Assembly (NCBI GenBank): GCA_040753135.1
Contig: JBFMGR010000001.1
Span: forward strand, 1 to 49,361
From: Patescibacteria group bacterium
GTDB taxonomy: Bacteria > Patescibacteriota > Minisyncoccia > UBA6257 > Brennerbacteraceae
Length of the DNA: 49,361 bases
Direction of reading: 5' to 3'
Shown: positions 14,611-36,956 of the stretch, piece by piece
Layout: each line of letters starts with the position of its first letter
Numbering within the stretch: the first letter of the stretch is position 1
Translations under genes and position numbers: made by a program
The notes under the pieces: generated by a model
The model's database searches: none
What the model saw: only the letters and a program-made list of their open reading frames with translations
What the model was told of the DNA's origin: nothing

Positions 14611-15540
14611 ATGTTTGAGGTAATTATTATTGGCGCTTCAGCGGCCGGAATTTCTTCAGCAATCTATCTTTCGCGACGGGGGATTAAACCGCTGATTTTA
14701 GGTTTTGAGCTTGGCGGAGAGATGGCTTTGTCAGGCGAAGTGGGGAATTATCCCGGCTTTGGTCAAACCAACGGAGTTGAGTTAACTGAAAAGTTTTTAA
14801 GCCATTTAAGGCAGTATCAGGCAGAGCCGGTTTTGGGGGTTAAGATAACCGGCCTGAAAAAAGCTGATGACGGTTTTACGGTTGAGGGCTGGAAAGATTC
14901 AGAAGCTAATCAGGTTAAATATCAAGCTAAAGCTGTGATTATCGCTTCGGGCGCTCATCCAAGAGAGTTAAATGTGCCCGGAGAAAAAGAGTTGCGCGGT
15001 AAAGGCGTGAGTTATTGCACTGTTTGTGACGGGCCGTTGTTTAAAGATAAAGTCGTGGTGATTATCGGCGGCGGCGATTCAGCCAATGAAGCCGGAATAA
15101 TGATGAACGAAATTGCTCAAAAAACTTATCTGATAACGAAAAATCCGGAGATGAAAGGCGACCCGTCTTTGATCAGGCGTTTGAAAGAGTCAAAGAATGT
15201 TGAGATTATTCCGAAAGCGATGACAGAAAAAATTCTTGGCGACGGTTTTGTTTCCGGAATTGAGTATAAAGACCTGAGTTCAGGAGAAACAAAAACAATT
15301 CAGGCGCAGGGCGTGTTTATTCATATCGGTATGATCCCGAACTCGGATTTTGTTATGCCGGAATTGGCTAAAAATGAGCGGGGCGAGATTATTATTGATA
15401 AGTTTTGCCGGACCAATCTTCCCGGAGTTTTTGCTGCCGGGGATATCACTGATGTTCAGTATAAGCAGATCGGGATTGCGGTTGGTCAAGGAATCTGCGC
15501 CGGCTTATCCGCGGTTGATTATTTGAATAAACTGGACTAA
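14611..15540 (+). CDS. trxB: Thioredoxin reductase-like flavoprotein
   Basis: FAD-binding GASAAGISSAIYL at the N-terminus, redox-active Cys136-Thr-Val-Cys139 in SYCTVCDGP, NADPH-binding GGGDSANEAG and the C-terminal GVFAAGDITD that closes the FAD site. At 309 aa it is a standard low-molecular-weight TrxB, reducing thioredoxin or glutaredoxin-like proteins with NADPH. The upstream neighbours supply likely partners (glutaredoxin-like, DsbA-like). Confidence 0.94.
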   Translation: MFEVIIIGASAAGISSAIYLSRRGIKPLILGFELGGEMALSGEVGNYPGFGQTNGVELTEKFLSHLRQYQAEPVLGVKITGLKKADDGFTVEGWKDSEANQVKYQAKAVIIASGAHPRELNVPGEKELRGKGVSYCTVCDGPLFKDKVVVIIGGGDSANEAGIMMNEIAQKTYLITKNPEMKGDPSLIRRLKESKNVEIIPKAMTEKILGDGFVSGIEYKDLSSGETKTIQAQGVFIHIGMIPNSDFVMPELAKNERGEIIIDKFCRTNLPGVFAAGDITDVQYKQIGIAVGQGICAGLSAVDYLNKLD

Positions 15541-15596
15541 CTGAATTAATTAGTTTTTTCCGCCTTTCTTTTTTATCTCGCTTGATCTTGTTTTAT

Positions 15597-15628
15597 CTTA
15601 CTTCTATACTCTAGAGTATAGAAGTAAG
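15597..15628. promoter_or_regulatory. 32-bp perfect palindrome upstream of the TrpR-like gene
   Basis: A perfect palindrome without a spacer; the left half is CTTACTTCTATACTCT and the centre is CTAG. Its inner 26 bp (half ACTTCTATACTCT) recur exactly at 16185-16210 after the gene. It lies 47 bases before the ATG at 15676. It has no T run, so a dimeric protein-binding site, most simply an operator for the TrpR-like product, is more likely than a terminator. Confidence 0.6.
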
Positions 15629-15675
15629 GCGTTTTGTTCAATTTAAATAAACTGTTAAATTCACAGTAAAATAAT

Positions 15676-16167
15676 ATGCCAAGAAAGCGGCCGGAAACAA
15701 TTGAAGAAATTGAAAGAAAAAGAATTTTAAATCAGTTTTGGACCATGGTCTCTCTTTTGGGAACCAAAGAAGAGGCGAAAAACTTTTTTAAAGACTTATT
15801 AAGCGAAACCGAAGCATTGATGCTGGCCAGGCGAATTGAAATTGCCCGATTGTTATTGCAAAACTGGAGTTATGAGGAGATTAAAAAAGAGCTTTCTACT
15901 GCTGCGGCCACAATCGCTTCGGTCCACCGCTGGCTTGAAGGCGGTTTTGGCGGTTACCAGAAGGAAATGAAAAAAATGGAACAAGTTGTATATGAAGAAG
16001 AAGCCGAGGCGCTGAAAAAAATTGAAGCCAATCATCCCTTTACCGGGATTGAATGGATGAAAAGAAAATATCCGTTCCATTTTCTTTTGGTGAGTCTTTT
16101 ACAATTTGGGATTAAAGAAGATAAAAAGAAAAAAAGCCCTACGCCTACGCCTAAGCCTAAGAGGTAA
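15676..16167 (+). CDS. TrpR/YerC-family DNA-binding regulator
   Basis: The helix-turn-helix region (about residues 45-95) matches the YerC/YecD branch of the TrpR superfamily: LSETEALMLARRIEIARLLL, SYEEIKKELSTAAATIASVHRWL, then EGGFGGYQ. These proteins bind palindromic DNA as dimers; the ligand of this branch is not established. A basic tail (KEDKKKKSPTPTPKPKR) follows and is longer than in YerC. The 163-aa protein is encoded between two identical 26-bp palindromes with a CTAG centre, strong circumstantial evidence for autoregulation. No tryptophan biosynthesis gene is nearby. Confidence 0.88.
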   Translation: MPRKRPETIEEIERKRILNQFWTMVSLLGTKEEAKNFFKDLLSETEALMLARRIEIARLLLQNWSYEEIKKELSTAAATIASVHRWLEGGFGGYQKEMKKMEQVVYEEEAEALKKIEANHPFTGIEWMKRKYPFHFLLVSLLQFGIKEDKKKKSPTPTPKPKR

Positions 16168-16184
16168 TTTTTAATTTTTACCCT

Positions 16185-16210
16185 ACTTCTATACTCTAGA
16201 GTATAGAAGT
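16185..16210. promoter_or_regulatory. Second copy of the 26-bp palindrome, downstream of the TrpR-like gene
   Basis: Identical to the inner 26 bp of 15597-15628 (half ACTTCTATACTCT). It begins 18 bases after the TrpR-like stop and 127 bases before the SpoU-type methyltransferase start. Flanking bases differ (ACCCT / GGGT). Candidate operator for the downstream gene or for looping with the first site. Confidence 0.55.
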
Positions 16211-16336
16211 GGGTAGTTTATGGCTGTTAGTTGATAAATGTTAGTTTGTGGCTGTGTTTTAACCGCAGACATCTGTCGGTTTATTAGTTGATAATTGATT
16301 ATTAATTTTAATTATTGATAATATTGATAATAGATT

Positions 16337-16807
16337 ATGTTTTGTCTGGTTTTAGATAATCTTCGCAGCGCCCTCAATGCTGGGGCGATTTTCCGGACCG
16401 CTGACGCTGTTGGCGTTGAAAGAATTTATCTTTGCGGCATCACCCCGCGCCCAAGCCAATCAGGTCGGGCAGGCAAAGATCTGGCTAAGACCGCTTTGGG
16501 AGCGGAAAAGCATCTTGCTTGGGAATATAAAAAGCGCGCTGGCGATGCGATTAACCAGTTAAAAAAACAAAGGTTTAAGATTATTGCTTTGGAGCAGGAT
16601 AAAAAAGCGGTTGATGTTTTTAAGTTTCGGCTAGGCAAAAAGCAAAAAATCGCTCTGGTTTTGGGCAATGAAGTTAGGGGCATTTCTAAAAACATCTTGA
16701 AAAAATGTGATAAAATAATTTATATTCCGATGTTCGGCAAAAAAGAATCTTTAAATGTTGCTGTGGCATTTGGAATAGCAAGTTATTGCCTAAAATTCAG
16801 AAAATGA
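16337..16807 (+). CDS. SpoU-family (SPOUT) RNA 2'-O-methyltransferase
   Basis: A minimal SPOUT methyltransferase. Motif 1 LDNLRSALNAGAIFRTADA, motif 2 LVLGNEVRGISKNIL and motif 3 IPMFGKKESLNVAVAFGI form the trefoil knot that binds S-adenosylmethionine. There is no N-terminal substrate-binding domain (156 aa), so it is TrmL-like in size; the RNA target (tRNA or rRNA ribose) is not determined. The second palindrome lies upstream and could control it. Confidence 0.9.
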   Translation: MFCLVLDNLRSALNAGAIFRTADAVGVERIYLCGITPRPSQSGRAGKDLAKTALGAEKHLAWEYKKRAGDAINQLKKQRFKIIALEQDKKAVDVFKFRLGKKQKIALVLGNEVRGISKNILKKCDKIIYIPMFGKKESLNVAVAFGIASYCLKFRK

Positions 16808-36187: not shown

Positions 36188-36209
36188 AGGAGAACTGTTC
36201 TCCTTTATT
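36184..36209 (-). repeat. REP copy 1, upstream of the transposase (inverted)
   Basis: GGAGAACTGTTCTCC with TTTATT to its right: the exact reverse complement of the unit AATAAA + GGAGAACAGTTCTCC found twice further on. Here the ATAAA flank is also present on the left, so the palindrome extends to 12-bp arms around one base. Confidence 0.75.
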
Positions 36210-36235
36210 TTGTATCAGAGTAAAAGTACCTGAAT

Positions 36236-36940
36236 ATGCCAACAAAACGACCACCACTAATAACAGGACAAATTTATCATATAGTGTTACGTGGAACTGG
36301 AGAAGAGCTGATCTTTAAGGACCAAGACGATTATTATAGGGGCATTTTTTCAATTTTTGAGTTTAATACTACAAAACCCGTAGAGATCGCTATCCAGCGC
36401 CGGAAGCGTAAAATTCAGAAAAATAAAGGAGAACAGTTCTCCGATGATAGGGATTTGTTGGTGGAAATTTTAGCTTTCTGCTTTATGCCTAATCACATTC
36501 ACCTTCTTCTTTATCAGAAAAAAGATGGAGGTATAACTAATTTTATGCGGAAGTTTGGCGCGGGTTATGCGAGCTATTTTAATAAAAGACATAAAAGAAA
36601 AGGCCATCTTTTCCAAGGCAGATTTCGCGCAGTTCATATCCAAGATGAAAGTCAATTAAGAACAGTGTTTGTTTATATTCATTGCAATCCGCTTTCTTTG
36701 ATTGAGCCCAGCTGGAAAGAAAAAGGAATAAAACAGACAATTAAATCAACGGAATTTTTGGAAAACTTTAAGTGGTCAAGCTATCAAGATTATATTGGCA
36801 AAAATAATTTTCCTTCAGTTACCCAAAAAGATTTTTTGGTTAATGCTATTTTAGGCAAAGGGGGTGGTAGAAACTTGGTTAGGAATTGGATAAGATATAA
36901 AAAAGATTTAGTAGATTGGTATGAAGTTGGTATTGAATAA
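36236..36940 (+). CDS. REP-associated tyrosine transposase (RAYT, Y1/IS200-like)
   Basis: RAYTs are single-copy relatives of IS200/IS605 TnpA that nick single-stranded REP hairpins. Landmarks: N-terminal PLITGQIYHIVLRGTG; the HUH motif MPNHIHLLLYQ (His87, His89); the catalytic-Tyr helix YASYFNKRHKRKGHLFQGRFRAVHI; and VFVYIHCNPL. Length 234 aa. A REP unit lies inside the gene (36422-36442) and encodes NKGEQFS (residues 63-69) in a variable loop. Two further copies, in inverse orientation to each other, flank the gene. This arrangement strongly suggests that the unit is the substrate of this transposase. Confidence 0.92.
   Translation: MPTKRPPLITGQIYHIVLRGTGEELIFKDQDDYYRGIFSIFEFNTTKPVEIAIQRRKRKIQKNKGEQFSDDRDLLVEILAFCFMPNHIHLLLYQKKDGGITNFMRKFGAGYASYFNKRHKRKGHLFQGRFRAVHIQDESQLRTVFVYIHCNPLSLIEPSWKEKGIKQTIKSTEFLENFKWSSYQDYIGKNNFPSVTQKDFLVNAILGKGGGRNLVRNWIRYKKDLVDWYEVGIE
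36422..36442 (+). repeat. REP copy 2, inside the RAYT coding region
   Basis: AATAAA followed by GGAGAACAGTTCTCC, identical over all 21 bases to copy 3. It is translated in frame. Confidence 0.75.
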
Positions 36941-36956
36941 AGGAGAACAGTTCTCC
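36936..36956 (+). repeat. REP copy 3, at the RAYT stop codon
   Basis: AATAAA followed by GGAGAACAGTTCTCC; its TAA supplies the stop codon of the RAYT gene. It runs straight into the truncated GIY-YIG reading frame. Confidence 0.75.

Follow-up and report, generated by a model that had tools for sequence, protein, structure and literature searches.

A TrpR/HisR-like gene of a Patescibacteria genome, bracketed by identical palindromes that may be the dispersing recognition site of its product

The window analysed here, a 49,361-nucleotide stretch of a Patescibacteria contig, contains a 163-residue forward-strand open reading frame (15676-16167) bracketed by two copies of the same 26-bp perfect palindrome, ACTTCTATACTCTAGAGTATAGAAGT, which has a CTAG centre. 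The copies lie at 15600-15625 and 16185-16210, 585 bp apart centre to centre, exactly as an earlier note on this DNA had described, and neither is assigned a strand. The upstream palindrome is perfect across 32 bp (15597-15628), and the equivalent 32-bp span downstream (16182-16213) contains a single mismatched pair; the downstream palindrome begins 17 bp past the stop codon of the enclosed gene. This palindrome-gene-palindrome unit is flanked by a trxB-like gene on its left (14611-15540, forward strand) and a trmH/SpoU-type RNA methyltransferase gene on its right (16337-16807, forward strand). The palindromes form strong hairpins on both strands, the upstream one with an RNA fold z-score of -4.2. 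A TTGATC-17-TATACT promoter-like match (15582-15610) overlaps the upstream palindrome and is weak, being expected at chance frequency. The window holds no further copy of ACTTCTATACTCTAGAGTATAGAAGT, tolerating up to two mismatches per 13-bp half. A chance origin of the bracketing is excluded: when the flanks of 67 TrpR-like genes were shuffled 100 times, no gene ever came to lie between two copies of one perfect palindrome of 12 bp or more.

The protein encoded between the palindromes belongs to the TrpR/HisR(YerC) family of DNA-binding proteins. It matches PF01371 (E 8e-16, 58.3 bits, cut-off 27), passes the cut-off of the YerC/YecD model TIGR02531 (46.1 bits against 42.2) and falls below that of the TrpR equivalog TIGR01321 (27.5 against 67.25). 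The AlphaFold2 model (pLDDT 88.9) has an all-helical TrpR-like fold with a helix-turn-helix, and the closest solved folds returned by Foldseek are 3frw, 3kor and 3g1c (probability 1.00), followed by E. coli TrpR (1tro). The protein also carries a helical, basic C-terminal extension of ~60 residues. A catalytic domain was sought in this tail by Pfam, AlphaFold2 and Foldseek and none was found; the protein has no match to the Y1 HUH family PF01797, and in the window protein and eight relatives only helix-turn-helix Pfam families were credible and no nuclease domain was recognisable.

TrpR and HisR bind palindromic sites of ~20 bp and commonly autoregulate. The yerC gene of B. subtilis encodes HisR, which represses in response to histidine and has a palindromic consensus of 20 bp (PMC9413887), so the earlier note's description of YerC sites and ligands as poorly known is out of date. 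The present system resembles these regulators in fold and family (PF01371, TIGR02531), in having palindromic sites of about 20 bp (PMC9413887) and, in many relatives, in the presence of an upstream site at the gene's own promoter. It differs in that the site is repeated unchanged behind the gene, that further copies are dispersed or intragenic, that every gene has a palindrome of its own and that the basic C-terminus is longer. Nor does it resemble the HisR regulon: the cacTTTAnnnnnnTAAAgtg consensus is absent from the window palindrome, whose copies in this genome follow trxB, the TrpR-like gene itself, a secF-like gene and an archease-like gene, and no his or trp target genes were seen near them. 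Among relatives, four short YerC-like genes (L020, L023, L027 and L053) lie near ACTTTA-type palindromes that do fit the HisR consensus.

The bracketed layout recurs widely. TrpR-like genes and their flanks were gathered from 121 genomes of the order, mostly fragmented assemblies with mechanical, script-based gene calls. Of these 67 genes, 29 have the same perfect palindrome, 14 bp or longer, on either side, compared with about two independent genes among roughly 430 others (four of the six control hits were duplicates or TrpR genes themselves). Each TrpR-like gene has its own palindrome, even where paralogues share a genome; the site at locus L036 is CTATCACATGTGATAG and that at L070 is CTATGACATGTCATAG. 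ACTTCTATACTCTAGAGTATAGAAGT was absent from 100 relatives with up to three mismatches allowed. In a 380-genome sample of the phylum, unmismatched matches occurred only in G000 and one Berkelbacteria genome, and in an exact scan of contigs from 84,980 species, each represented by one genome, the one other genome with a match was a Candidatus Berkelbacteria metagenome-assembled genome (MAG). In this MAG, ACTTCCATACTCTAGAGTATGGAAGT and GCTTCTATACTCTAGAGTATAGAAGC, each symmetrically changed, bracket a 96-residue TrpR-like gene whose product is 24% identical to the window protein. A motif of the window's clade, ACTTCnATACTnnnnAGTATnGAAGT, brackets TrpR-like genes in full or near-full form at L266 and L278 (sites of the ACTTC-n-ATACT-nnnn-AGTAT-n-GAAGT type), and the closest relative found (L276, 50% identical) is bracketed by ATACTTTCAAGTAT. 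Together with the Berkelbacteria locus, these cases indicate that the window's clade has a common site motif. An automatic test across the phylum sample found bracketing in 12 of 62 longer members and in one of 28 short, classical YerC-like members, a rarer and patchy occurrence on which we rejected the idea that the layout is general to the whole phylum. The classical short YerC/HisR members mostly lack bracketing palindromes.

Several lines of evidence suggest that the encoded proteins read these palindromes. In TrpR, Ala80 and Ile79 contact DNA (PMC9413887), and these contact positions coincide with residues that covary with the palindromes. The residue aligned to Ala80 covaries with half-site position -4 (Fisher p 1e-5): Gln is paired with G at 12 of 12 strict loci, and Asn, Ser and Leu are found mostly with C. 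The same rule held at 17 of 18 looser loci picked by eye. When every column of the protein alignment was compared, without preselection, with half-site positions -1 to -7, this pair ranked second by z-score, and the residue at the Ile79 position pairs with half-site -6. On the tree, the coupling has three well-supported independent contrasts and none contrary, with a phylogeny-corrected sign test that is low in power. The covariation comes mainly from a sister clade, and the window protein has Ala at the Ala80-equivalent position. With only three such contrasts, we regard this evidence as good but not conclusive. Co-inheritance also points to binding: of the 121 genomes, 17 carry CTATnACnnGTnATAG-class palindromes and 15 of these 17 also have a PF01371 gene (p 4e-7), and in four genomes (G006, G018, G051 and G029) the exact variant beside the genome's own TrpR-like gene is repeated elsewhere. 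Given that recognition-helix residues aligned to the TrpR contacts covary with bases of the site, the encoded TrpR-like protein very probably recognises the palindrome.

The upstream copy has the character of an operator. In 14 of the 26 genes that are strictly bracketed, the core of the upstream palindrome ends no more than about 10 bases from the start of a TATAAT-like box, compared with one of 26 for the downstream palindrome. This geometry fits a repressor site in the promoter spacer and suggests that the upstream palindrome is the operator of the gene's own promoter, through which the protein would repress itself. The proposal in the earlier note that both palindromes are the protein's own operators is therefore upheld in part. 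They are very probably its recognition sites, as bracketing in distant genomes and residue-base covariation indicate, and the upstream copy is operator-like in many relatives; operators alone they appear not to be, since palindromes of this kind are dispersed, lie in frame within genes, are inserted relative to related genomes and form part of larger repeats, as described below.

Although the earlier note's statement that there is no other exact copy holds within the window, a scan of the whole genome (622,592 bases) found a third exact copy of ACTTCTATACTCTAGAGTATAGAAGT on another contig (C9:10101). A fourth copy (C16:639) reads ACTTCTTTACTCTAGAGTAAAGAAGT and has two differences, placed symmetrically. 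The C9 copy lies ~20 bp past the stop codon of a secF-like gene, with an ftsW/rodA-like gene downstream of it; the C16 copy comes ~10 bp past the stop codon of an archease-like gene and is followed by an rtcB-like gene. These neighbours were named by sequence reading. All four genome copies are within about 60 bp after a stop codon and none is placed in frame inside a gene.

At the window locus itself, comparison with relatives reveals a putative empty site. Four family members were examined. In G001, G003 and G004, trxB directly precedes trmH with a gap of roughly 0 to 50 bp; in the fourth (G002), an unrelated gene separates them. In the window, the unit occupies the trxB/trmH junction and gene order is otherwise conserved. 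Among six family genomes, the window's is the only one with a PF01371 gene. Because trxB and trmH adjoin in relatives and PF01371 is confined to this genome among the six, the unit is most simply read as an acquired insertion. Scans of viral contigs and a search of plasmid proteins were empty. For a second TrpR unit, in G029, comparison with the same-genus genome G048 showed that synteny breaks beside the unit, and no empty site was obtained.

In relatives, the palindromes associated with TrpR-like genes are found far beyond those genes. Of 54 copies placed, nearly all were dispersed (51 loci): 15 are intragenic, 13 lie between convergent genes, 21 are tandem intergenic and five lie between divergent genes, and the palindromes frequently sit after stop codons. 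Intragenic copies keep the reading frame open in genes for phosphoglycerate kinase and TrmH and for KsgA-like, ArgRS-like, asparagine synthetase-like, SMC-like and FtsK-like proteins (hosts named by sequence reading), where they nearly always read [A/T]-[I/M]-T-x-[D/H]-S. One such case is the loop between KSIPYYK and KIALVLGNE (L154-L200) in TrmH, encoded by orthologues of the window's own trmH gene, where unrelated in-frame palindromes occur in about ten genomes of different families; a same-genus genome with no PF01371 match has a TrmH loop that lacks the palindrome and is 18 nt shorter. This surface loop is either an insertion hot spot or a tolerated site. One palindrome-carrying trmH gene (L154, in G029) in turn lies between two 38-bp perfect palindromes, TACTATTGTAATTCCACGATCGTGGAATTACAATAGTA, a pair that encloses no TrpR-like gene. 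In glycerate-kinase-like genes of G050 (L117) and G477 (L133), one shared N-terminal position holds palindromes that resemble each other without being identical, which represent either an old shared insertion that has drifted or a position hit more than once. A dispersed repeat of ~130 bp in G006 has the palindrome at its centre, and across relatives pairing is retained to about +/-16 bp though the bases vary among copies. We infer from the dispersal, the in-frame copies and the ~130-bp repeat that these palindromes are mobile or dispersing elements. For the window's palindrome in particular, mobility would rest on the relatives and one empty site, since its genome has four copies only. The earlier note had named occurrence as a mobile repeat at unrelated sites as an argument against its operator reading, and this is what was found in part: two additional copies follow secF-like and archease-like genes here, and the cognate palindromes of relatives are dispersed, even within genes.

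We weighed an interpretation that combines recognition with mobility against three others. In the favoured interpretation, which we hold with moderate confidence, the TrpR/HisR-type protein regulates its own gene and the palindrome that it binds is mobile, in a RAYT-REP-like layout with no recognisable transposase. The gene product would recognise the 26-bp palindrome on either side of its gene and use the upstream copy as the operator for autorepression; gene and sites together would make up a compact unit, mobile or acquired horizontally, that has entered the junction of trxB and trmH. The site would be one of a class of palindromes that disperse, and that have spread to many loci of relatives, in-frame positions of conserved genes included. 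A plain autoregulator is a less probable account, though one to be taken seriously. Here both palindromes would be TrpR/HisR-type operators, perhaps looped, the distant copies would form a small regulon (secF/ftsW and archease/rtcB) and no mobility would be involved. The 20-bp palindromes and frequent autoregulation of TrpR and HisR (PMC9413887), the promoter geometry in relatives, the presence of just four copies in this genome and the position of the C9 and C16 copies, each upstream of a co-directional gene, all agree with it; yet each of the four copies has a stop codon no more than about 60 bp before it, simple autorepression leaves the second, post-gene copy unexplained, and the palindromes of related proteins lie between convergent genes, in frame within genes, at sites of insertion relative to relatives and in larger repeats.

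The two remaining explanations seem improbable to us, to about the same degree. In one, the palindrome is a REP-like element that owes its movement to a Y1 (RAYT) transposase encoded at another locus of the genome, and the TrpR-like gene either rides along as a passenger or has a regulatory part. This genome does have two PF01797 genes, one of them in the window with its own palindromes, and the layout resembles RAYT-REP (PMC3116915). However, the palindrome of the window's RAYT gene, GGAGAACnGTTCTCC, is different, palindrome identity follows the TrpR-like protein, and eight of 17 tested carriers have no PF01797 match, on which ground the classical RAYT route was rejected as a general mover. 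In the other, an RNA-level element flanks the gene by coincidence, and its hairpins terminate transcription, protect mRNA ends or serve as sites for RNase III. The strong hairpins on both strands, the placement after stop codons, the retained pairing to about +/-16 bp with varying bases in relatives and two terminator-like hits with weak T content speak for such a role, whereas a proper T-run is missing, no Rfam match was found and RNA pairing alone would not require a conserved core sequence matched to the recognition helix. An intrinsic terminator was specifically rejected, as the tails TAGTTTATGG and CGTTTTGTTC have no T-run and the stems are A-T rich.

Within the favoured interpretation of a protein with a mobile binding site, the window protein may act as an accessory, targeting or protecting factor in palindrome spread. 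A more specific and more speculative version, which we put forward tentatively, is a novel type of mobile element of CPR-type bacteria, in which a non-catalytic TrpR-family protein has an operator that itself spreads. The palindrome-gene-palindrome unit would then be the master and solo palindromes its progeny, the specificities of protein and palindrome would co-evolve, and the protein would recruit or permit a host or other activity that does the moving. No description of such a protein-palindrome pairing was found in open-access literature text. The pairing links two puzzles, namely orphan in-frame palindromes in essential genes and the many CPR-type TrpR-like proteins with no obvious amino-acid operon. 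If it is true, each protein's site flanks its gene, which would provide dozens of protein-site pairs for a TrpR-fold recognition code and a concrete suspect for the spread of small palindromes that have no recognisable transposase.

Two known systems offer the closest parallels. Rickettsia palindromic elements occur in frame within conserved protein genes and between genes (PMC2229807), and how they spread is unexplained; in-frame insertion of this kind was seen in conserved genes of relatives and at none of the four copies in the window's genome. The Rickettsia elements are longer (105-146 bp, compared with 16-32 bp here), and no protein is described for them that corresponds to the palindrome-sharing protein gene to which the present palindromes are linked (PMC2229807). 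In RAYT/REP systems (REPINs), as here, a gene is flanked by palindromes that are also dispersed in the genome, and the palindrome is gene-specific. The differences are that the protein here is of the helix-turn-helix repressor type and has no Y1 HUH domain, and that many carriers have no Y1 transposase. The window itself provides a useful comparison, with the same layout around a different protein: at 36189-36956, a Y1/RAYT-type gene (about 36237-36940) is bracketed by its own palindrome, GGAGAACnGTTCTCC, which has a third copy inside the gene and 10 copies in the genome. One contig (L016:1-80, G430:C15) starts with a ~80-bp palindrome around CTTCGATACGCTAGCGTATCGAAG, representing either an assembly hairpin end or a long element.
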